Below are positions 18,660-38,562 of a stretch of DNA of 42,111 bases, in pieces. The notes under the pieces were generated by a model, which saw nothing but the letters and a program-made list of their open reading frames with translations, had not been told where the DNA came from and searched no databases. Origin of the DNA: Armatimonadota bacterium (GTDB lineage Bacteria > Armatimonadota > Zipacnadia > Zipacnadales > VGFC01); assembly GCA_016869045.1 (NCBI GenBank), contig VGFC01000013.1, forward strand, positions 1 through 42,111, written 5' to 3'. The position numbers were made by a program, and so were the translations under genes. Position 1 is the first letter of the stretch. Every line of letters starts with the position of its first letter.

Positions 18660-21600
18660 ATGGTTCTCCTAGCCGGTCTAGTGACGATCAACGCCTTCTC
18701 TGCAGGGGCCCAGCCGGACGCTGAGCCCCTGTTTGACCGGGTGATCGCGGACTTCGAGACCGGCTCCCTCGACCGCTGGCAATCTAGCATGTCGGGGGAG
18801 TACTACCGCGGCGGGCAGGGGCAGAAGGGCCTGGCCGTCGTCCGGGACGAAGCCCGGGGCTCCAACGTCTTGGCGGCGCAGATTCGGTGGACGAATCCGC
18901 AGGCCTCCGAACCCGCGTTTATTACCTACTTCTTGCCTCAGCCCATCCCGCGCCAGCTCATCACCTCGGTCTCCTTTGCCTACCGCCTCTCGGCCTACCA
19001 CCTCGACGATGCCGCCGGCTTCAAGGTCAGGCTGCGCTACTCGGACACCGAGTTCACCGACTACGATGTCTCGACCGGCCGGCCCCTCCCGGTCGGCGAG
19101 TGGCAGTCGGTGACGCTGAACACCCGCTCCGGGCCCAACGTGCGCAACATCTACAACTCGCTCTTCGGCTCGGTAAGGGAGATCACGTTCCGGCTGGATG
19201 ACATCGATGCCGAGAACGCGGAGTTCGAGCTGCGCCTCGACGACGTGAAGCTCACCCTGCGCTCGCCCGCCGAGGAGCAGTACACGCCCCGGGCGACGGC
19301 GCGCCCGACCGATGAGCGCCTCGACGTGCTCTACCTGAAGCACTCGGCCGAGGGGTTCTTCCCGCTGGAGGAGGCAGCGCGGTTCGCCGGGAGCGCCCTA
19401 GAGCGCGTGCGGGAAGGCCACCGCCAACAGGGGACAGTCCCGCTTTCGGCGGTGAGGCTGCCGAAAACTGGGACAGTCCCAGCATCTCCACCCCCCTCTT
19501 CGCACACGCTATTGGGTGATCGACCGCCGCGCATCGACACGCAGCTCTTCCGTGGGCTCCACTTCCCTTTCTTCGACTTCCCGCGCACCCGCGACGATGT
19601 ACTCGCCCACGACCTGATCGTGATGCTGGATGTGGACCCGTACGTCCTGACCTGGCAGCAGTCCACGTGGATCGCCGACGCCGTCGCCTCGGGCGCCGGG
19701 CTGCTGTTCCTGGCCGGCCCGAACACGCTCTCCCACTCGAGGGACCTCAAAGCTCCCATCGCCGCCATCCTTCCCGTCAGCTTCGAGCCAGAGGCCAAGG
19801 ACCAGAGCGGAGGCCCGGTCAGCATACCGAGCCCCGACCATTCCGCCGTGACCGGGCTCGACCCGGACCGACTCGGACGCGTGGGCGCCGTCGCGACGGT
19901 TGTGCCCAAGCCCGGCGCCGAAGTCGCGCTGCTCTCCGGCGATCGCCCCCTGCTCGTGCTCGGGCAGGTCGGCGTGGGTCGCACGGCCCTCCTCGCCACT
20001 TGGCCGCAGGTCTCCACATCTCGCGACCGGTGGTTCTACACTGACGACTGCTGCGACGCCCTCCTGCAGCAGCTCCTGCTCTGGCTGGTGAAGGCAGACC
20101 CTCCCGTGCGCGTGGCCACCGTCACCCCTCCGCCCCGCACGGTCATCGGCCCGACCGAGGTCGAGTGCAGACTCGAACTGCGCTCCGCGAAGCCCCAGCG
20201 TGTCGCGGTCAGATGGGCCTCAGGGGAGTCTGCCACTCCCGCCGAGGGGCTTGGCGCTAGCTTGGGGCTCTCGGGCGCGATGGAGATTGTGTTGAAGAAG
20301 GCGGGGTCGGGATTGGCATCCCGACCTACGAGATACGTGGGGCGCGTAGGAGAGGGTTCTTCCTTTGACGGGGCCCTTTCTCAACACAATCTGAATGGCG
20401 CCCCTACACGGTCGGGCGCGATGGAGATTGCGTTGAGAAAGGCGGGGTCGGGATTGGCATCCCGACCTACGAGATACGTGGGGCGCGTAGGGGAGGCGTC
20501 CTTCCTCGATAGAGCCCTTCTTCAACACAATCTGAATCGCGCCCCTACACGGTCGGGCGCGATGAATCGCGCCCCTACGCAGGGCCCGGGCCGGCCCAAG
20601 TTGGCGCCGACACCCGCCGAGGGAGAGGCGGTCACTGTGGACGGTCTGGCAACCGTCTCGCGCAAGTTCACCTTGCAGCCTCCGCGCGGGCCGCAACGCC
20701 CGGTCGATATATCCGCCACCGTGGTGGATGGGCGAGGCAGGCCGCTCGCCGAACGTCGCTTCCGTACGCAGGTGCTCAGCCCGATCACGCTCGCCGGCTA
20801 TGCCCAGCACGGACGCTGTGCGTTCGCTCCGGGCTGGCCTGTGCAAGTGGGGGCTGAACTCTCGATGCCGGGCCTGCCGCGCGCGGCGGCCTCGGGTGTC
20901 GGCGCGACGGTGTCGGCCCCCGATGGCTCGTGGACCATCGGCTTGCCCACGATGGCCGACGTCTGGGCGTACAAGCCGGGTAGCGACGAGGTCTACCATA
21001 GCTTCAGCGGCGGCGAAGTGCTGAACGAGACCCAGACCTCCGAGGGCCTGCTGCCGGTCTTCACCACCGACGCCCTCATCCGCGCCACGCGCACCGACGG
21101 CAACGTGTTCGACGCCGACAACCGAATCGCGAAGGTGAATCGGAGGCTCACTGCGCGCCCGGGTGGTATCGTGAACTGCACGTACCAGTACGAGTTCCTC
21201 CGCGACGTGCGCCTCCAGCGCATGCCGCTGCTGCTCACGCTCCCCGTGAGCCAGTGGGCCGGCACACCGTTCCGCCTGCGCTGCGATGAGGGCGAACGGG
21301 AGGGCACTGGCGCTAACGTAGGGCTCTCGGGCGCCATGAATGGCGCCCCTACACGGCCGGGCGCGATGAATCGCGCCCCTACACGCGGCCCCGGGCGGCG
21401 TGAGTTGGCGCCAATGGAGCGGGAGGGTGTCCTACCCGCCGACGAGGACGCCAACCGCGACGGCCTCGCCGACGTGCACGGCCTGGACCTCACGCTGGAG
21501 ACCCCCGAGGGCCCCGTGCGCATCGAGTGGCAGCAGCCCGGCCTGCGCGCGTGGATCCGCGACCTCCGCAAGTACGGAAGCGCCGAATACCGAATCGAGC

Positions 21601-24218
21601 TGGAGTGCCCCTTCGCCGGCGCCGAGGTGAAGGCCGGGGACACGTACTCGGTGGGTCTCACCATCGCATTCCCCGCCGCCCAGGTGGACGTGCCGCCTCT
21701 CGATGGCCTGATGGTGTCCGCGTGTCTGCGGCAGGGGGAGGACCTCGATCGTGTTGACAAAGGCAGTGTCGGGATTGGAATCCCGACCTACGAGCTACGT
21801 GGGGCGGGGAGGAGAGGGGTGCTTCCTCGACAGAGCCCTTCTTCAACACAGTCCTTCGCGCGCTCGACTCCCGTCTGGGAGATCGGCTCCGCGCCTGCCG
21901 CGGCGCAGGTGCACCTCGCCGGCGTCCTCCCGAACCTCGAGAGTGGGCCGTACTGGCTGGAGTTCGCCCTCGGCAAGCCCGGGGCCGAGCCGGTGGCGAC
22001 GGATGCAACCCAATGCTGGGTCGTGGACAACCTCGACCGCGAGCGGTTCTTCCCGCTGATCTCCATTCTGGGCAGCAACGGCGGGGGGCATCAGCTCGAC
22101 GAGGCCGGCGTCCGGGCGCGCGCCGATGACCTCTGGCGCGCCGGCTTCAACACCATCGCGTACGGCGGGGCGACCCGCTTCGCGCCGGCGCATGTCACCA
22201 ACCTCGCCTCGCAGATCGACGCCTATGCCGAGGGCTATGCCTTCAGTCGCGGCATGGCGAGCATCCTGGAGTACACGCACTACACGCGCCTGGAGCAGGA
22301 GGGCAAGGGTGACCCGAGCCCCTTCTCGCCCGACTCGAGGGCGGCGACCCGCGCCCACGTCCAGCCGTACCTCGACGTGGCCGACGCGAACCCGCGCCTC
22401 CTCAGCGTGAAGGTCATCGACGAGCCCACCGTCTCCGAGTCATCGCTCACCTTCAGCGACGATGAGAAGCGCGCCTTCGCCGAACGCTACGGCGGCGAGC
22501 TGCGCCCCCTCAAGGAGATCGGCGACGACCCCCTCGCGCGCCTACATCTCACGCAGTTCATCGGCGACCAGGTCGCTGAGGAGTACCGGCAGGGGTGGGA
22601 GATCAAGCACGAGCAGGACCGCCGGTGGGACCTCCTGCTCACCTACATGTCGCCGGGCTTGGGCTATGGTCGGTCCTTCAGCGGGCAGGAGGATGCGCTG
22701 AAGTGGTCACGGTACGCGGACCGGATCGACTTCGACGTGTATCCCTACTTCTACCCGACCTCGCAGAAGCTCCGCATGGTGCAGGCCAACTACTGCCACG
22801 CCTTCCAGCGCTGCATTGCGCAGCACCTGCATCGGCCCTTCGGCTTCTACGTGGAGCTGGATGACCGCAACTACCCCTTCCAGATCAACCCGCCCGAGGC
22901 GTCGGCCGAGTGCGCCTACACCGCCGTCGGCCAGGGCGTGAGCTACCTGAACTCCTTCATCAACCAGGCCTTCGGCACGGGCGTGCAGTCCCGCCCCGAG
23001 CGTTGGGAATACCTCGCGTCCGAACTGCCGCGCATCCGCCGCCTCGGCCCGCTGCTCAACAAGCTCCCGCGCCCGCCCGCGCCCGTCGCCCTGCTCTACC
23101 CGATGACCCAGGCACGAATCCGCAACGGCTACGCCGTGCCGCACTACGCCTTCGCGCTGCTGAACAGCGCCTTCGGCGACACCGACCTCCTCCACGAGGA
23201 GGTCCTCCTCGAAGCCGGCATCCCGCAGACGTGCCGCGCGCTCGTGCTGCTGCGCACGGAGCTGCTCGCGCGCAAGACCTTCGAGGCGATCCTCTCCTTC
23301 GTCGAAGGCGGGGGATTGCTGCTGGCGGATGGCTCGCTGCCCGCCACCGACGAGACCGGCGCGCCGCTCGCCTGGGCCTTGGACCCCGCCACTGCGCAGG
23401 CCGTGACTACCCCCGGGCCCGGCGTGCCCGTTCGTCTGCACCGCCTCGGAGAGGGCGCGATCCTCCGCCTGGACGCAGATGTCGAAGCCCTCGTGAAGGA
23501 GACCGTCGAGGGTGCCGATCCGCAAAGCCCAGAGATCGCCGCCCCCGTGCGGTTCGCCCAGTGGCACAAGCTGATCCGCACGCTCTTCGAGGGCAGCGTG
23601 ACCGGCGCGCAACCGATCCTGCCGACGGTCGTGACCGACGACGACACCGCGGAGATCGAGGTCGGCGTGCGCTCCGGCGAGAACACCACGCTGCTCGTCG
23701 TCACCAACCACGACTCCCGTGAGCGCACCGCAAGCCTGGCGCTGCCTGGCCTCTCTGAGCGCCCCGGCTTCGTGTGTGACCTCCGCGAGATGAAGCCGAT
23801 CGAGGACGGGGAATTGCGGGGACACGATCGCAATTCGATACGACCGAATTGGGTCATGTCCCCGGAACTCACCCTCGCCGCGCGCCACTCGGCCCTGCTC
23901 GGCCTCTACCCCGAGCGGCCCGCTGGGATCGGCCTGCAACTGAAGCGCGACAAGGCGAAGCCCGGCGAGGGGTTGGCTTACGGGATCGTGGTCCGCAACG
24001 CGCAAGGCAAGCCTGCGCGCGGCCTGCACCTGGTGGAGGTGACGGTGACCGACCCGACCGGCGTCGTCCGCGAACGTTACGGCGGCGGCTTCGCAGTCGC
24101 GGGCACCCTCAACTTCCGCGCGCCCCTCGCGATCAACGCCGCCCCCGGCGAGTGGCGATTCGAGGCCAGGCTGCCCGTCGTCGGGAAATCCGCCACGGCC
24201 ACGCTGATAGTCAGGTAA
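18660..24218 (+). CDS. Giant exported glycosidase-like protein (1852 residues) carrying palindromic-element inserts
   Basis: Signal peptide (MVLLAGLVTINAFSAGAQ). Residues ~25-200 form a carbohydrate-binding-like sandwich (IADFETGSLDRW...FRLDDIDAENAEFELRLDDVKLT). Residues ~313-478 look like an amidotransferase/ThuA-type fold (WIADAVASGAGLLFLAGPN). After ~1120 there is a TIM-barrel-like glycosidase region (FNTIAYGGATRF, VKVIDEPTVSES near 1253, FYVELDDRNYPF) and a further flavodoxin-like domain (VALLYPMTQARIRNGYAVPHY...FVEGGGLLLADGSLP). It recalls beta-galactosidase trimer-type proteins, but the family is not certain. Five stretches (about 244-284, 530-650, 883-918, 1030-1065, 1715-1736) are encoded by palindromic repeats and are low-complexity. 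GTG at 18651 lies in a hairpin, so ATG at 18660 was chosen. The frame is unbroken for 5.5 kb. Confidence 0.72.
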   Translation: MVLLAGLVTINAFSAGAQPDAEPLFDRVIADFETGSLDRWQSSMSGEYYRGGQGQKGLAVVRDEARGSNVLAAQIRWTNPQASEPAFITYFLPQPIPRQLITSVSFAYRLSAYHLDDAAGFKVRLRYSDTEFTDYDVSTGRPLPVGEWQSVTLNTRSGPNVRNIYNSLFGSVREITFRLDDIDAENAEFELRLDDVKLTLRSPAEEQYTPRATARPTDERLDVLYLKHSAEGFFPLEEAARFAGSALERVREGHRQQGTVPLSAVRLPKTGTVPASPPPSSHTLLGDRPPRIDTQLFRGLHFPFFDFPRTRDDVLAHDLIVMLDVDPYVLTWQQSTWIADAVASGAGLLFLAGPNTLSHSRDLKAPIAAILPVSFEPEAKDQSGGPVSIPSPDHSAVTGLDPDRLGRVGAVATVVPKPGAEVALLSGDRPLLVLGQVGVGRTALLATWPQVSTSRDRWFYTDDCCDALLQQLLLWLVKADPPVRVATVTPPPRTVIGPTEVECRLELRSAKPQRVAVRWASGESATPAEGLGASLGLSGAMEIVLKKAGSGLASRPTRYVGRVGEGSSFDGALSQHNLNGAPTRSGAMEIALRKAGSGLASRPTRYVGRVGEASFLDRALLQHNLNRAPTRSGAMNRAPTQGPGRPKLAPTPAEGEAVTVDGLATVSRKFTLQPPRGPQRPVDISATVVDGRGRPLAERRFRTQVLSPITLAGYAQHGRCAFAPGWPVQVGAELSMPGLPRAAASGVGATVSAPDGSWTIGLPTMADVWAYKPGSDEVYHSFSGGEVLNETQTSEGLLPVFTTDALIRATRTDGNVFDADNRIAKVNRRLTARPGGIVNCTYQYEFLRDVRLQRMPLLLTLPVSQWAGTPFRLRCDEGEREGTGANVGLSGAMNGAPTRPGAMNRAPTRGPGRRELAPMEREGVLPADEDANRDGLADVHGLDLTLETPEGPVRIEWQQPGLRAWIRDLRKYGSAEYRIELECPFAGAEVKAGDTYSVGLTIAFPAAQVDVPPLDGLMVSACLRQGEDLDRVDKGSVGIGIPTYELRGAGRRGVLPRQSPSSTQSFARSTPVWEIGSAPAAAQVHLAGVLPNLESGPYWLEFALGKPGAEPVATDATQCWVVDNLDRERFFPLISILGSNGGGHQLDEAGVRARADDLWRAGFNTIAYGGATRFAPAHVTNLASQIDAYAEGYAFSRGMASILEYTHYTRLEQEGKGDPSPFSPDSRAATRAHVQPYLDVADANPRLLSVKVIDEPTVSESSLTFSDDEKRAFAERYGGELRPLKEIGDDPLARLHLTQFIGDQVAEEYRQGWEIKHEQDRRWDLLLTYMSPGLGYGRSFSGQEDALKWSRYADRIDFDVYPYFYPTSQKLRMVQANYCHAFQRCIAQHLHRPFGFYVELDDRNYPFQINPPEASAECAYTAVGQGVSYLNSFINQAFGTGVQSRPERWEYLASELPRIRRLGPLLNKLPRPPAPVALLYPMTQARIRNGYAVPHYAFALLNSAFGDTDLLHEEVLLEAGIPQTCRALVLLRTELLARKTFEAILSFVEGGGLLLADGSLPATDETGAPLAWALDPATAQAVTTPGPGVPVRLHRLGEGAILRLDADVEALVKETVEGADPQSPEIAAPVRFAQWHKLIRTLFEGSVTGAQPILPTVVTDDDTAEIEVGVRSGENTTLLVVTNHDSRERTASLALPGLSERPGFVCDLREMKPIEDGELRGHDRNSIRPNWVMSPELTLAARHSALLGLYPERPAGIGLQLKRDKAKPGEGLAYGIVVRNAQGKPARGLHLVEVTVTDPTGVVRERYGGGFAVAGTLNFRAPLAINAAPGEWRFEARLPVVGKSATATLIVR
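19393..19512. repeat. In-frame palindromic element I (GGGACAGTCCC family)
   Basis: About 115 nt, nearly the same as the intergenic copy at 31264-31376. GGGACAGTCCC occurs twice around a CGGCGGTGAGGCTGCCG hairpin, with outer GTGCGGGAAGG and CTTCGCACAC ends. Inside the gene it encodes VREGHRQQGTVPLSAVRL and PKTGTVPASPPPSSHT without a stop. Confidence 0.85.
20251..20608. repeat. In-frame nested element cluster II
   Basis: Outer inverted ends GGCGCTAGCTTGGG and CCCAAGTTGGCGCC enclose three ATGAAT palindromes starting at 20273, 20414 and 20555. The first two are split at their centre by a 111-nt element (20283-20393 and 20424-20534) that begins GAGATTG(T/C)GTTGA and ends TCAACACAATCTG. The period of the split units is 141 nt, that of the bare unit 30 nt; both are multiples of 3. 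Confidence 0.88.
21308..21413. repeat. In-frame element cluster III
   Basis: Two ATGAAT palindromes (21328 and 21358, 30 nt apart) within the same outer frame as cluster II (TGGCGCTAAC... and ...GAGTTGGCGCC). The first has a GGGCGCC stem, the second GGGCGCG. Neither carries the 111-nt insert. The encoded text is SGAMNGAPTRPGAMNRAPTR. Confidence 0.85.
21750..21855. repeat. In-frame element IV: free copy of the 111-nt element in another frame
   Basis: TGTTGACAAAGG...GTCGGGATTGGAATCCCGACCTACGAG...CTTCTTCAACACAG matches the inserts of cluster II but lies outside any ATGAAT palindrome. It is read in a different frame: VGIGIPTYELRG here, against GSGLASRPTRYVGR in cluster II. Confidence 0.82.
23806..23866. 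repeat. In-frame palindrome V (GGGGACA family)
   Basis: GGGGACACGATCGCAATTCG and CGAATTGGGTCATGTCCCC form arms of ~19 nt around ATACGAC. The encoded insert is GELRGHDRNSIRPNWVMSPE, out of character with its surroundings. Confidence 0.7.
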
Positions 24219-24227
24219 CGGCAGGCG

Positions 24228-24602
24228 TCTTAGAGGGTGTATGAGAAGGACGGCATTGGGCGTGATGAATCACGCCCCTACACTGGGGCACGATGAATCG
24301 TGCCCCTACATGACGGCGATCTACGGTCGTTTGTGATGTAGGGGCGCGATTCATCGCGCCCGATCGAGTAGGGGCGCCATTCATGGCGCCCGCGCACCCT
24401 TCTCACCCACGCTCTTAGAGGGTGTATGAGAAGGACGGCATTGGGCGTGATGAATCACGCCCCTACACTGGGGCACGATGAATCGTGCCCCTACATGACG
24501 GCGATCTACGGTCGTTTGTGATGTAGGGGCGCGATTCATCGCGCCCGATCGAGTAGGGGCGCCATTCATGGCGCCCGCGCACCCTTCTCACCCACGCTCT
24601 TA
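24228..24602. repeat. Perfect 185-bp tandem duplication, each copy holding four ATGAAT palindromes
   Basis: Copies are 24228-24412 and 24413-24597, then TCTTA of a third. I see no difference between them. Each copy has hairpins with stems GGGCGTG, GGGCACG, GGGCGCG and GGGCGCC, the first two in one orientation and the last two in the other. The gap 24219-24730 has no gene. Confidence 0.9.
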
Positions 24603-31263: not shown

Positions 31264-31376
31264 TTGGAGCGTGTGCGGAAGGGCCACCGCCAACAGGGGA
31301 CAGTCCCGTTTTCGGCGGTGAGGCTGCCGAAAACTGGGACAGTCCCAACGTCTCCGCCCCCTCTTCGCACACGCCC
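31264..31376. repeat. Intergenic copy of the GGGACAGTCCC element
   Basis: About 110 nt, ~90% like the in-gene copy at 19393-19512 by eye. Outer GTGTGCGGAAGG and CTCTTCGCACAC ends pair; inner GGGACAGTCCC repeats flank a GTTTTCGGC...GCCGAAAAC hairpin. It fills the gap between two minus-strand genes. Confidence 0.85.
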
Positions 31377-32844: not shown

Positions 32845-35217
32845 CTACTTGCGGATGACGCGGACGTAGCGAGTTGCGACATTCCCCGCGCCATCCACCG
32901 CGGTGATGGTCAGCGGATTCTCGCCCAGCTCAAGGTGGCGCACGAAGACGAAGCCGAATCCCTTGCCGCTCGGCCCGTCGATCGGATAGGTCGCGCCTCC
33001 GACGATCGTGGCGTTGTTCAGAGTCAGCTTCGCCACGCCGCTCGCGTCCACCGCATACCCGCGGACGGTGATCGTCTCAGACTTCACGCTCACCACGCGA
33101 CCGGCCGGTCGCGCGATCGTGAGCAGCGGCGGCGTGTTGTCATGCCAGACGCGCTCGAGGTGGAAGCCGGCGATCTTCGAGAAGCTCGGCACGCCCGTCG
33201 CGCCGAGCACGACCCGCAAGCGCACCTGGGTCCCCGTCGCGTTCTCGGCGATCCGCAGGTGGAACTTGCCCGTCGCGGTGCCGGCCGGTCGCAGGTCGCC
33301 CAGGTCCGCCGCGCCCACGATGACGAGCACATTCCGGTCGATGGCCTCGATCCGGGCTTTGAGGCTCTTGGCGGTGCCGTTGGCGGTGTTGTGGACGGAG
33401 AGATACAGCAAGGCCTCCTCGCCGAGGCCGAGCACGCCGTTCCCGTTCCCCGTCGTGAAGGCGGTCTGGCTGTCATCCACCTTCGCCTTCACGATCTTCA
33501 GCGTGGGCTCGAGGAAGGGCGCCACGCCGACGTCGGCCGTGGCCAGGGCCACCGACACGCCGCTCTCCTTGGCCGCGAAGGTCAGCTTCGCATGGTGGGA
33601 GGGCACGTCACGCGGGGCGCCGAGGGTGAAGCGCACCCGCTTCGTCGCCCCGGGCGGCACGCGGCCCAGGTACATCGAGCCCGGATACATCACGACACCC
33701 TTGCCCTCGATCTTGGGGGCGATCAGCAGGTCGCGGAAGATGCCGTCACTGTCGTTGCGGAAGAACACGTCGAGCGTCGCCCGCTCCGCCCCGTCGAGCA
33801 GCCCGTTCCCGGTCTCGGTATCGTCCAGCCGGTCGGCGACCCACATCGAGGCGGTGGTCTTGATCTGGGGCACGACGGGCACGAAGCGCGTCTGGAAGGG
33901 CTCCCAGGCCGTGCCGTAGTCGAAGCCCTTCGCCAAGGCGTTGCTGTAGCTCAGCGCGTTCGCAAAGCACCCCGTCCGGGCCTGGTCGCCGTGGAAGCAG
34001 CGCCACGGCGCCGAGGACGAGGGCATCGTCAGCTCGTACTGGTAGAAGTAGCCCTCGGGGCGCTCCTCGTCGCGGCGGATGCCCACGTAGAGTTCGAGCT
34101 TGCCGTCCCGATCCAGGTCCACCGCCAGGGGCGTGGACCAGCACTGGAATCCGAGCTTCACCGTGAACAGCCTGCCGCCGTAGGAGGCGAGCCCCACTAA
34201 CTCCCCTGAGGTGGTCGTGAGGATCAGGCCAGGCCGGTCGCCACCGAGATCGACGACGAGCGGGCTGGCAACACACGCCCCGCCAGTCGACCCGCCATAC
34301 GTCCGGCCTCCATAGGCGGAGTAGCACCCGACGCTGCCGCCCTCGCTTGCCGCCACGACCTCTAGCGGCCCGCCGGGCTGGATGTCCGCGACCACCGGGC
34401 TCGCGCGCTGGTGCTCCGACTCGCCCAGGCCGACGTTCCACTTCCGCCGCCCCTCGCAGTTCAGGCAGTAGAGGTTGTTGTCGTCCGAGACAACCAACAC
34501 CTCAGCGCAGCCCTCGCCATCCAGGTCCGCGATCGCGGGTGAGCTTTGCACCCAGCCGGCGGTCTCGTACGTCCACAGCACGGAGCCGTCGCCCTTGAGT
34601 GCGTAGACCTTGTAGTCCATCGACCCGAAGACGATCTCGGGCGCGCCGTCGCCGGTCAGGTCGCCGACAGCCGCCGTCCCCACCACCCAGCTATCGGTCT
34701 CATGCCGCCACCGCTCCTCGCCCTTCCCGGTCAGGCAATACAGCGAGTTGTCCTGCGAGCCGATGACGATCTCCTTCGACCCGTCCAGGTCCACGTCGGC
34801 GATCACCGGGCTGGCCGGCACGGAGTCGCCCGTGGCGAAGCGCCACTCGACCTCGGCCTCCGGCGAGAGGCAGTAGACCGCCCCATCCATCGAGCCGACG
34901 ACGACCTCCAGCGCGCCGTCGCCATCCACGTCGCCGATGGCGGGGCTGGATAGCACCTCCCCGCCGAGGTTCACGCGCCAGAGCACGCGGCCGGAGGGCT
35001 GGAGGCAGTACAGGTGGCCGTCGGTCGAGCCGACCAACAGCTCCATGTAACCGTCGAGGTCAAGGTCAGCAACGGCGGGGCAGGCGTTCCAGCCGGTCCC
35101 GAGCTCCAGACGCCACTTGAGAGAGGCCGAGATGCCGGCGGAAGCGGGCGACCAGGGAACGACAGCGGCGGCGACGGCGATGAAGAGGACGAGAGGCACT
35201 CGACGATCTGCCACCAT
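32845..35217 (-). CDS. Exported FG-GAP/PQQ-like beta-propeller protein
   Basis: A 790-residue protein. After the signal peptide (VPLVLFIAVAAAVVPWSPASAG) come seven or so blades of ~44 residues with the pattern SPAIADLDGDG..EVVVGS.D..LYCL (VNLGGEVLSSPAIGDVDGDG; ASPVIADVDLDGSKEIVIGS). Their Asp clusters would bind calcium. Residues ~450-700 hold two CARDB-like modules, each starting with a GNGLLDGAE or GNGNGVLGLGEE calcium-type loop. A bacterial Ig-like domain closes the protein. The likely role is adhesion or binding at the cell surface. GTG at 35226 opens the frame; ATG at 35217 has better spacing from GGGGGTG. It is divergent from the DUF4091 gene. Confidence 0.82.
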   Translation of the reverse strand: MVADRRVPLVLFIAVAAAVVPWSPASAGISASLKWRLELGTGWNACPAVADLDLDGYMELLVGSTDGHLYCLQPSGRVLWRVNLGGEVLSSPAIGDVDGDGALEVVVGSMDGAVYCLSPEAEVEWRFATGDSVPASPVIADVDLDGSKEIVIGSQDNSLYCLTGKGEERWRHETDSWVVGTAAVGDLTGDGAPEIVFGSMDYKVYALKGDGSVLWTYETAGWVQSSPAIADLDGEGCAEVLVVSDDNNLYCLNCEGRRKWNVGLGESEHQRASPVVADIQPGGPLEVVAASEGGSVGCYSAYGGRTYGGSTGGACVASPLVVDLGGDRPGLILTTTSGELVGLASYGGRLFTVKLGFQCWSTPLAVDLDRDGKLELYVGIRRDEERPEGYFYQYELTMPSSSAPWRCFHGDQARTGCFANALSYSNALAKGFDYGTAWEPFQTRFVPVVPQIKTTASMWVADRLDDTETGNGLLDGAERATLDVFFRNDSDGIFRDLLIAPKIEGKGVVMYPGSMYLGRVPPGATKRVRFTLGAPRDVPSHHAKLTFAAKESGVSVALATADVGVAPFLEPTLKIVKAKVDDSQTAFTTGNGNGVLGLGEEALLYLSVHNTANGTAKSLKARIEAIDRNVLVIVGAADLGDLRPAGTATGKFHLRIAENATGTQVRLRVVLGATGVPSFSKIAGFHLERVWHDNTPPLLTIARPAGRVVSVKSETITVRGYAVDASGVAKLTLNNATIVGGATYPIDGPSGKGFGFVFVRHLELGENPLTITAVDGAGNVATRYVRVIRK

Positions 35218-35379
35218 CACCAACACCCCCTGACGAGGACCGAACGTGCGGAGGGACGACAGTTCGAGTTCCCCGCCAGCGGTTGTGCCTCCTCCATGGG
35301 TCGCAGCACCAAGGTCGTGAGCAGGTGTGTGTCGAAGGGTATGGGAGACCAGTGGGTCACGGCGGCGGGCATGTTGTTG

Positions 35380-35406
35380 CTGGGAGCGCCGGCACCCTTG
35401 CCGGCT
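35380..35406. repeat. Inverted single copy of the GCCGGCACCCTTGCCGGC palindrome
   Basis: Opposite in orientation to the four copies at 35472-35636, so the region can form a long hairpin. The 35218-35676 gap between divergent genes has no gene and no clear promoter. Confidence 0.8.
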
Positions 35407-35471
35407 GAGGTGGCTGCCGTGGACGTGGCGGTCGACAAGGCGATGCCGCTCTGGAGCATAGCGGGGTCACC

Positions 35472-35636
35472 CCAGCCGGCAAGGGTGCCGGCGCTCCCAG
35501 CAACGGCTGGCACAGCAGCCGGCAAGGGTGCCGGCGCTCCCAGCAACGGCTGCCACAGCAGCCGGCAAGGGTGCCGGCGCTCCCAGCAACGGCTGCCACA
35601 GCAGCCGGCAAGGGTGCCGGCGCTCCCAGCAAGGAC
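35472..35636. repeat. Four tandem 43-bp repeats
   Basis: GCCGGCAAGGGTGCCGGCGC recurs at 35475, 35518, 35561 and 35604. Each unit contains a GCCGGCAAGGGTGCCGGC palindrome and a CTCCCAGCAACGGCTG linker. It lies just before the start of the DUF4091 gene. Confidence 0.88.
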
Positions 35637-35676
35637 GCTCTCCGAGCGCGAGTCGCCGGACCAGCGGAGGCTTGCC

Positions 35677-38562
35677 GTGAAACGGTTCGCCGCGGTCGCA
35701 GTGCTGTCGGCAACGCTTGCCGGGGCGTGCGGGACCGCCTGGGCGGAAGTGGTGGTCACGTGCCCGCGCGCGCCGGCGCCGCCGATCCTGGACGGCAACG
35801 TGACGCTCGATGAGTGGATCCAGGCCGGTCGCCTGAGCCCGTTCGTGCTGCTGCACAACGAGGGCCTGCCTCGCGAGGCGACCGACGTGCGTGTGATGTA
35901 CGACGACGAGGCCCTGTATGTCGCGGCGATCTTGTACGACTCGGATACCGATCACCTGCGGGCCCAGGTGACGGAGACCGACGACGAGGTGTACCGGGAC
36001 GACTGCTTCGAGGTGTTCATCGACGCCATCGGCACGGCGCAGTCGTACGTTCACCTCGTCATCAACTCCATCGGGACGCGCTTCGACGAGGTGGACGGGA
36101 GCCGGGAGGCCGCCGTGGTGTGGAACGCAGGAGTCGCGGTGAGGCTGACCGAGTGGTCGGTCGAGTTGTCGATTCCGTTCACCAGTGGGCGCCCGCCGGC
36201 CGAGGGAGCGACCTGGAAGATCGGGGCGGCGCGCTATCAGTCGCGGCTGGAGGAGTACACCAGCTGGAACGGCTTCCTGGACGGCTTCTACGAGCCGGCG
36301 CGCTTCGGCACGATGCGCTTCGGCGGACCGGCGGTGTCCTTCAGCCTCGTGGACGTGGGCGCCATGAAGCTGGGGCACAACGCCGCCGTGCTGTTCGCCG
36401 ACAACGCGACGGCCGAGCCGGTGACCCTGAAGACCAACCTGCGGGTCAGCGGGCGCGATCGCGCCGGGCACTTCTTCGGGACCTCCAGGTTCGTCGCTCT
36501 GCCCGGCGCGCGGACGCCGGTCGAAGCGTCCTACGAGGTCACGCAAGACGGGGAGGGGAGCCTGCTGATCTCGGTCACCGACGCGCAGGGCCAGGCGGTC
36601 TACCGAACCGCGCCCTTCCCTCTGTCCACCCCCCCTGTCTCAACCGAGTTGTTCGCGGTGGAGTCGGCGCTGGCCGAGGCCAGCCGGGAGTGGCTCCGTG
36701 TCCCTGCCTCACCGGCCAGGGACCAGTTGCGCAAGGACCTCGACGCCCTCGCCGGCGAGCGGGAGGAGCTGAACGACCTCGTGCGACAGCGCACGTCCCT
36801 GAGCCTGGCGCAGCTGAAGGAGGTCGAGAGGGCGCTCAGTAGCCTGCGCGGGCGTGTCGAGGAGCTGACGATCAGGCTGCGGGCCGCGGCGCTCGCGGGG
36901 GGGCAGTTGGGCTCGTTCATGGCGGCGCCGGTCGGCTCGCTGACGAAGGTCTTCCCCGACCAGCCGCTTCCGATCGGCGAGGCCGAGGCGCGCCTCGAAG
37001 CGTGCCGCAACGAGTGGGAGTCGTTTCAGATCGCGCTGACCCCGCTTGCCGACCACGTGGTGAAGCTGTCAGCCCGCGCGAGCGATCTGGTCGGGCCCTC
37101 GTCCGCAATCCCCGCCGGGCAACTGGGAATCCGGGTCGTCGGCAACGTTCCGGCGGCCGATCATCTGACGCGCAATGCGCCAAAGCGCCTCTGGCCGGAC
37201 ATCCTCACGCCGGCGCTGGCGGACACGGAGACGATCGAGCTTCGGCCCGGAGAAGTGCGCGCGCTATGGGTGTCGGTTCACGTGCCGCCCGAGACGGCGC
37301 CCGGGGAGTACGCCGGCACGGTGAGTCTCGCCGAGGATGGCGGCCTGGCGATCGACGTCCCCGTGCGCGTGGTTGTACATCATCCGGTGCTGCCCTCGCC
37401 GGGCGACTACCACGTGTCGGTGGGCTTCTGGCAGGCGCCGCGCCGGATCGCCGAGCAGTATGGCCTGGAGGTGTGGAGCCGCGAGCACTGGGACCTCCTG
37501 GGGACCTACTTGGCGGACCTGGCGGCCCACGGGGAGAAGCTCGCGAGCGTCACGCGGGACATGTTCGAGTGGCGGATGGATGAGAGCGGGCAGCCGGTCT
37601 TCCAGTACACGGTCTTCGACCGCTACATCGAACTGTGCCGGGAGGCGGGGATCGACGAGGGGATCGAGTACTACTCCATGTTCGACGGCGGCGGGGATAG
37701 CTCGGTCTCGTGGGCCGACGCTGCAGGGGACATGCACCGCGAGACGGCCAACCCGGGCGACGAGCGCTTCGACTCGCTCTGGAGCGCTTTCCTGACCGAC
37801 TTCGCGAGGCACCTGGAGGAAAAGGGCTGGCTGAGCAATGTCTTCATCTGTCCGACCGACGAGCCGCGCGACAGCGCGAACGTACCGACCCTCCAGCGCT
37901 TCGCGCGTTGCGCCGACCTTGTGCACGCCGCGAACCCGGCTCTGAAGACCACGGTCGCGCTCGACTCGCTCGACTCGGCCCGCACTCTCGCGCCGTGCGT
38001 GGACCGCATGGTCTTCAAGCTGCGGGACGATGTGTACGACCGGGAGGTGGCCGCCGCCAAGCGGGATGAGGGCGGGCGCGTCGAGGCGTACATCTGCTGC
38101 CATCCCGACCGGCCGAACACGTTCATCACTTCCCCGAACATCGACAGCCGCGTGATCGGCTGGCTGCTGTTCCGCGAGCAGCTGAGCGGTCTGCTGCGCT
38201 GGTCGTACGAGCGCTGGCCGCCCGACCCGATGGGCCAACCCGAAGGCGACGGGCGCTACGCCGCCGGGGACCTGTTCATCGTCTACCCGGGCGAGGAGGG
38301 GCCGTACGCCTCGCCCCGCTGGGAGATTCTGCGGGACGGCTTCGAGGATTACGGACTGCTTACCCTCCTGCAAGACGCGATCGGCGCGGCGCGCGCGGGC
38401 GGTCGGGCGGAGCAGGCGGACGCCGCTCAGAAGACGCTCGATGAGGCGATCGCCCGCGTCGTGGGCGCTGGTCCGGGGCTCGCGGAGTTCACGAATGACC
38501 CGCAGGAGTTGGGGCTGGCGCGGGTGAAGGTGCTGACGACGCTGGACTGGCTGGGGGAGTAA
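35677..38562 (+). CDS. Exported DUF4091/GH123-like glycoside hydrolase with CBM9-like domain
   Basis: A 961-residue protein. After the signal peptide (KRFAAVAVLSATLAGACGTAWA) a CBM9-like domain (~28-220: ILDGNVTLDEWIQAG; VRVMYDDEALYVAAI; DDCFEVFIDAIG) binds sugar. A helical, coiled-coil-like stretch follows (~330-400). The catalytic half has the DUF4091 hallmarks FICPTDEPRD near 727 (an Asp-Glu pair as in GH123 hexosaminidases) and GWLLFREQLSGLLRWSYERW...DLFIVYPG...RWEILRDGFEDYGLL. GH123 enzymes release N-acetylgalactosamine; here the substrate is inferred only. The start is GTG at 35677 with GGAGG 6 nt upstream; the frame upstream passes through tandem repeats. Confidence 0.85.
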   Translation: MKRFAAVAVLSATLAGACGTAWAEVVVTCPRAPAPPILDGNVTLDEWIQAGRLSPFVLLHNEGLPREATDVRVMYDDEALYVAAILYDSDTDHLRAQVTETDDEVYRDDCFEVFIDAIGTAQSYVHLVINSIGTRFDEVDGSREAAVVWNAGVAVRLTEWSVELSIPFTSGRPPAEGATWKIGAARYQSRLEEYTSWNGFLDGFYEPARFGTMRFGGPAVSFSLVDVGAMKLGHNAAVLFADNATAEPVTLKTNLRVSGRDRAGHFFGTSRFVALPGARTPVEASYEVTQDGEGSLLISVTDAQGQAVYRTAPFPLSTPPVSTELFAVESALAEASREWLRVPASPARDQLRKDLDALAGEREELNDLVRQRTSLSLAQLKEVERALSSLRGRVEELTIRLRAAALAGGQLGSFMAAPVGSLTKVFPDQPLPIGEAEARLEACRNEWESFQIALTPLADHVVKLSARASDLVGPSSAIPAGQLGIRVVGNVPAADHLTRNAPKRLWPDILTPALADTETIELRPGEVRALWVSVHVPPETAPGEYAGTVSLAEDGGLAIDVPVRVVVHHPVLPSPGDYHVSVGFWQAPRRIAEQYGLEVWSREHWDLLGTYLADLAAHGEKLASVTRDMFEWRMDESGQPVFQYTVFDRYIELCREAGIDEGIEYYSMFDGGGDSSVSWADAAGDMHRETANPGDERFDSLWSAFLTDFARHLEEKGWLSNVFICPTDEPRDSANVPTLQRFARCADLVHAANPALKTTVALDSLDSARTLAPCVDRMVFKLRDDVYDREVAAAKRDEGGRVEAYICCHPDRPNTFITSPNIDSRVIGWLLFREQLSGLLRWSYERWPPDPMGQPEGDGRYAAGDLFIVYPGEEGPYASPRWEILRDGFEDYGLLTLLQDAIGAARAGGRAEQADAAQKTLDEAIARVVGAGPGLAEFTNDPQELGLARVKVLTTLDWLGE

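Follow-up and report, generated by a model that had tools for sequence, protein, structure and literature searches.

The gene examined lies at positions 18660–24218 of the window, by which we mean the whole 42,111-nt stretch of DNA that was analysed, in an Armatimonadota assembly of 7.87 Mb in 723 contigs. On the forward strand, its frame was open over 1,852 codons, ending with a stop codon at 24216–24218 and containing no internal stop. A sequence-only reading had placed five clusters of palindromic repeats within this 5.5-kb stop-free frame, and all five were located where it had put them. The features are as follows.

18660–24218, + strand: host gene, for a 1,852-aa multidomain protein of uncertain function (basis: open frame, Pfam, 2gk3 profile and dN/dS)
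~19401–19509, + strand: cluster 1, family C, a GGGACAGTCCC hairpin between GAGCGYGTGCG..CGCACACGC ends; homologues gapped
20235–20249, + strand: left direct repeat of cluster 2, ACTCCCGCCGAGGGG, coding for TPAEG; 13/15 matches with 20610–20624
20252–20608, + strand: cluster 2, outer unit TGGCGCTA..TTGGCGCC with family A REPs, two B MITEs and a 141-bp tandem duplication
20285–20391, + strand: B MITE copy 1 of cluster 2, in a family A REP loop; internal GTAG REP at 20306–20329
20426–20532, + strand: B MITE copy 2 of cluster 2, in a family A REP loop; internal GTAG REP at 20447–20470
20555–20578, − strand: intact family A REP of cluster 2, exact match
20610–20624, + strand: right direct repeat of cluster 2, ACACCCGCCGAGGGA, coding for TPAEG
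21294–21305, + strand: left direct repeat of cluster 3, GAACGGGAGGGC, coding for EREG; 10/12 matches with 21417–21428
21308–21412, + strand: cluster 3, outer unit as in cluster 2, with a family A REP pair; homologue gap of 41 residues
21329–21352, − strand: family A REP of cluster 3, GCGCCA subtype, exact match
21359–21382, − strand: family A REP of cluster 3, GCGCGA subtype, exact match
21417–21428, + strand: right direct repeat of cluster 3, GAGCGGGAGGGT, coding for EREG
21747–21853, + strand: cluster 4, a B MITE apparently inserted directly in gene sequence, 87% identical to B copy 2, with no host REP stem
23806–23866, + strand: cluster 5, a family D hairpin

The N-terminus of the deduced protein is hydrophobic and resembles a signal peptide. 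Pfam returned GATase1_like, MG2 (C-terminal) and GLMA_2nd, all of them weak and under the curated cut-offs, and the 2gk3 profile matched with an E value of 2.2e-7. When the protein was compared with its own genome, 149 matches were obtained, nearly all of which fell on the element-encoded segments. An Rfam search of the window gave no match.

Folding as single-stranded DNA was in every cluster better than that of dinucleotide shuffles, with z values of −2.6 for cluster 1, −3.5 for cluster 2 (second B copy), −4.2 for cluster 3, −2.9 for cluster 4 and −3.2 for cluster 5. Clusters 2 and 3 proved to be copies of one outer unit, cluster 2 being composite, and the left end of this unit had no other occurrence in the assembly. 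The direct repeats flanking them have empirical p values of ~3e-4 (cluster 2) and ~3e-3 (cluster 3), and because they differ from each other, the two clusters represent two insertions rather than one duplication. The net inserts, 375 bp (125 codons) for cluster 2 and 123 bp (41 codons) for cluster 3, are both multiples of three and free of stops. The B copy of cluster 4 is read in a frame different from that of the B copies in cluster 2; its candidate target duplication, CCTC/CTTC, matches at 3 of 4 positions, which is not significant alone. No target duplication was evident for cluster 1.

A scan of genome contigs yielded a sole relative, the same-genus Armatimonadetes MAG K_DeepCast_150m_m2_147, in which the orthologue (L087, G001:C6) shared 60–73% identity with the host protein over the main shared parts. 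The element segments had been predicted to be absent from homologues; this was clearly so for clusters 1 to 4, with gaps of ~126 residues at cluster 2 (same-genus orthologue), 41 residues at cluster 3, exactly the 41 codons inserted, and 40–41 residues at cluster 4, whereas cluster 5 aligned less cleanly, its net gain being ~9–13 residues relative to homologues for an element that encodes ~20. In the same alignment, the segments were looked for as conserved protein sequence in distant relatives and were not found. The elements are dispersed repeats which the homologues lack, and together they have added ~250 residues to the host protein. The sequence-only reading had further placed the inserts between folded domains, which probably does not hold for clusters 1 and 3, at least; judged from the alignment, the inserts probably lie in loops, those of these two clusters inside conserved regions. 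It was also noticed that the same-genus orthologue is without ~300 residues common to most other full-length homologues (P0001 ~770–1065).

Relatives elsewhere had been proposed for the first three clusters, and this could be extended to all five. Family A, common to clusters 2 and 3, is a GTAG-tagged REP, GTAGGGGCGCGATTCATCGCGCCC, with 762 matches in the genome versus 1 for a reversed-pattern control; its stem subtypes are compensated (GCGCGA/TCGCGC, GCGTGA/TCACGC, GCGCCA/TGGCGC and GCACGA/TCGTGC), and its units occur in pairs 28 or 30 bp apart and also in four-unit arrays. Family C, that of cluster 1, was represented by six copies, full or nearly so, in the loci examined, including those at L251, L252, L253 and L151 in addition to the one in the window. 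Family D, that of cluster 5, is a GGGGACATGACC hairpin with 30 hits in a 2.4-Mb sample. Ends of the TIR type (GGGGWSAS-type) are present in both of the latter, as GGGGACAG in family C and GGGGACAC in family D. The relatives in the window and the family A pairs found inside genes are listed below.

24228–24412 and 24413–24597, + strand: two 185-bp arrays, each of four family A REPs, in tandem, 100% identical, directly downstream of the host gene
31267–31374, + strand: relative of cluster 1, family C, 93% identity, apparently intergenic
L123, 14149–14223: in-gene family A pair
L141, 13153–13254: in-gene family A pair
L143, 4091–4185: in-gene family A pair
Window, 21320–21399: in-gene family A pair

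Other repeats were noticed in passing. Tandem copies of another palindromic family (CTGGGAGCGCCGGCACCCTTGCCGGC) are located at 35376–35428 and 35473–35632 of the window, within an ORF at 35014–38562 and possibly upstream of its true start, and a similar repeat flanks the Y1_Tnp gene at L023. Short non-palindromic repeats of the CTTCTTCGCCGTTCTTCGAATCTTC and GGAGTCAGGAGCCAGGAGTCAGGAG types are also dispersed genome-wide, for example at L102 (18970–19019) and L115 (9726–9781).

Genome statistics were taken from the 2.4-Mb sample of stretches, ~31% of the genome. In it, 23 of 312 scorable palindromic clusters (~7%) were open, in frame and inside genes, versus 59% of random positions. The in-gene share was higher for family D (9/26 scorable clusters, about one third) than for family A (4/84; Fisher p=2.5e-4). 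Selection of the frame through the length of the family D core was considered and, being weak (47-nt cores in 6/9 cases in genes versus 3/17 outside), was not used. Genes hosting elements include those for GH2 enzymes, an amidohydrolase, an enolase-like protein and a mannosyltransferase-like protein. In the GH2 gene of L143, an element occupies residues 290–322, and the match to the same-genus genome is interrupted around it, at 298/323; in L227, which encodes a 936-aa protein, the same-genus matches stop at 438 and restart at 473, the two being separated by 3 nt in that genome. With these two, empty sites in the same-genus genome are available for three genes, including the host gene. All four in-gene family A pairs were in one orientation and frame (GAMNxAPT), though four of the six frames are open; the frame in which B and D were read varied from site to site.

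The element of family B is 107 bp long, has GATTGTGTTGA and TCAACACAATC as its ends and contains a GTAG-tagged REP. It gave 50 matches; terminal inverted repeats, target duplication, multiple copies and a non-coding sequence assign it to the MITEs. After rejoining of the flanks, a hairpin stem score of at least 6 was reached for 23 of 30 distinct B copies as compared with 3.8% of random sites, and inspection by eye revealed REP arms on both sides of 28 of the 30. A 4-bp target duplication was exact in 17/30 copies and matched at three or more of the 4 positions in 25/30. MITE B prefers REP hairpin loops, where it inserts with a 4-bp target duplication, and the REPs of cluster 2 were therefore its landing sites. 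Since the REPs hosting B are of several sequences and the duplicated tetranucleotides differ, B has spread by repeated insertions and not solely by amplification of one composite. B was found in none of the 100 further genomes searched, among them that of the same genus, which suggests that the spread was recent. One insertion amounts to 107 + 4 = 111 bp, or 37 codons, and we tentatively consider it possible that REP loops act as landing pads, such that an in-frame REP pair is tolerated, B homes to its loop and the protein grows stepwise, in frame.

An IS with ends TGCACATTCCGCA occupies the loop of the internal REP of B at several contig ends. This IS is present in L260–L270 (contig ends C563, C6, C211, C136, C316, C158, C145, C131, C320, C199 and C364), and the contigs break within it. 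Lone B ends, which were considered as candidates for an autonomous partner of B, were ruled out, as they run into this IS inside the internal REP; no autonomous partner sharing the ends of B was found in the fragmented assembly.

Ten Y1_Tnp genes were found in the genome, several of them flanked by palindromes of dispersed families: those of L017, L018 and L019 have GGGACA-type palindromes on both sides, that of L020 is flanked by GGGGACAG/GGGGACAC hairpins, and other dispersed families flank those of L023 and L025. Flanking of Y1_Tnp genes by palindromes is the arrangement described for REPtrons and TIRtrons (PMC3733652). The Y1_Tnp gene at 1501–1827 of L017 has an in-frame TGA and appears inactivated, and its flanking palindromes are intact. 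In the fragmented assembly, no family A element was found within ~1.5 kb of the ten genes, nor did families C and D flank any of them; because neither A nor D flanks a Y1_Tnp gene, RAYT-driven movement of these two families is something that we infer.

Based on these results, the five clusters are very probably insertions of miniature non-autonomous mobile elements, namely GTAG REPs, TIR-type hairpins and a MITE, into a conserved gene. Selfish REP and MITE elements would have hit the gene repeatedly, with the REP and TIR families presumably being moved by HUH transposases of the RAYT/TIRYT type; insertions that broke the frame would have been removed by selection and frame-preserving copies would have survived, the added peptides being translated, as we suppose, into loops that are for the most part neutral and serve no function themselves. 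Alternatively, the gene may be decaying or under relaxed selection, so that elements pile up unremoved and the open frame is luck or very recent. The number of clusters fits such a view, as 0.054 would be expected in 5.6 kb (P(≥5) ~4e-9); like for like, with the three clusters detected by the classifier, P(≥3) is ~2.6e-5 per gene of this size, or ~0.03 when corrected for the genome with coding DNA taken as ~1,200 genes of this length (our estimate). As the classifier detected 3 of the 5 clusters, the hot-spot argument is kept modest and the excess is regarded as suggestive. Loss of ~300 residues by the same-genus orthologue itself also fits decay. However, all five inserts preserve the frame, no stop has arisen across the 1,852 codons, and dN/dS between the host gene and that orthologue, inserts excluded, is 0.20–0.42, a value that averages both lineages and includes the time before the insertions. 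We therefore consider decay unlikely.

The inserted peptides could also have been co-opted and retained for some role, such as that of flexible linkers or binding segments, to which their combined length and the uniform orientation and frame of the family A pairs in four unrelated genes would lend themselves. This uniformity is not strongly predicted by a purely neutral reading and weighs against it; on the other hand, the frame available to family A is also limited by its stop codons. Family B in two frames within the host gene and family D in several across genes give unrelated peptides, which argues against a conserved peptide function, and no homologue carries the elements, so that co-option appears very improbable. 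An artefact of assembly or binning, in which metagenome repeats were collapsed or misjoined, might be suspected from the 723 contigs, many of which end in repeats, but it would have to account for five separate inserts all in frame, two of them with flanking direct repeats, and for similar insertions with empty sites in two other genes, and is scarcely credible. That the segments are ancestral protein sequence lost by the homologues has in its favour only that the gap pattern is symmetrical in principle; since hundreds of intergenic elements scattered over the genome are nearly identical to the segments and all homologues lack the latter, we give this next to no weight. Insertion of mobile elements is thus retained as the explanation.

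Events of this type are already known, and the present case stands out by how heavily the gene was hit and by its nesting, in which one element lies in another's hairpin loop. What appears to be new is the number of families that share one gene, together with a MITE that prefers REP loops. Palindromic elements inside genes, familiar above all from Rickettsia, are now documented in Armatimonadota as well, with empty sites in three genes as evidence, and the host gene allows several element families and levels of nesting to be ordered within one gene. The most unusual part is the targeting of REP loops by MITE B. The literature searched contained no description of a MITE that targets REP loops, which does not prove that none exists, and a text search for GTAGGGGC returned nothing relevant. 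If true, such a preference would connect two systems of mobile elements, and stepwise nested growth of a protein would become directly testable.

Rickettsia palindromic elements, to which the clusters had been likened, are mobile and have entered unrelated protein genes without disrupting the frame (Ogata et al. 2000, 2002, as reviewed in PMC10969869). The parallel is a fair one, as both are palindromic, lie in frame within protein genes that are not related to one another, as family D does for about one third of its clusters, and are absent from homologues. The sequences had been taken to be unrelated, and the end tags agree with this: repeats of R. conorii carry a CGTC tag (PMC3733652), whereas family A ends in GTAG and no CGTC end is present in A, B or D. 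In contrast to the Rickettsia elements, there is no conserved peptide here, B and D using several frames and only A a single one in four genes, and most families are mainly extragenic. Closer relatives are the GTAG REPs and the TIR elements of RAYT/TIRYT transposases, which have already been reported inside genes (PMC3733652). GTAG REPs are palindromes of 20–40 bp with an unpaired GTAG end, high copy number, a mostly extragenic location and paired units, and some lie in frame within ORFs of several bacteria, sometimes two per ORF (Di Nocera et al. 2013; PMC3733652). Family A resembles them in its short palindrome, unpaired GTAG end, high copy number, mostly extragenic location and occurrence in pairs or clusters; the host gene differs in that it holds five clusters, drawn from four families, and MITEs nested in REP loops, no RAYT was found flanked by family A, and the phylum is new for in-gene cases according to the list in PMC3733652. 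TIR elements of TIRYT transposases have a GGGGWSAS motif (PMC3733652); ends of the GGGGACAG/GGGGACAC type are carried by C, D and several other families, and Y1_Tnp genes here are flanked by such palindromes, although none was found flanked by C or D themselves. REPs are also known targets of insertion sequences, among them IS1397, ISKpn1, IS621 and ISPpu9 (PMC1525189). Like these, MITE B inserts inside the REP palindrome with high target selectivity; it differs in being a 107-bp non-coding element with no partner IS found and in accepting several REP sequences.
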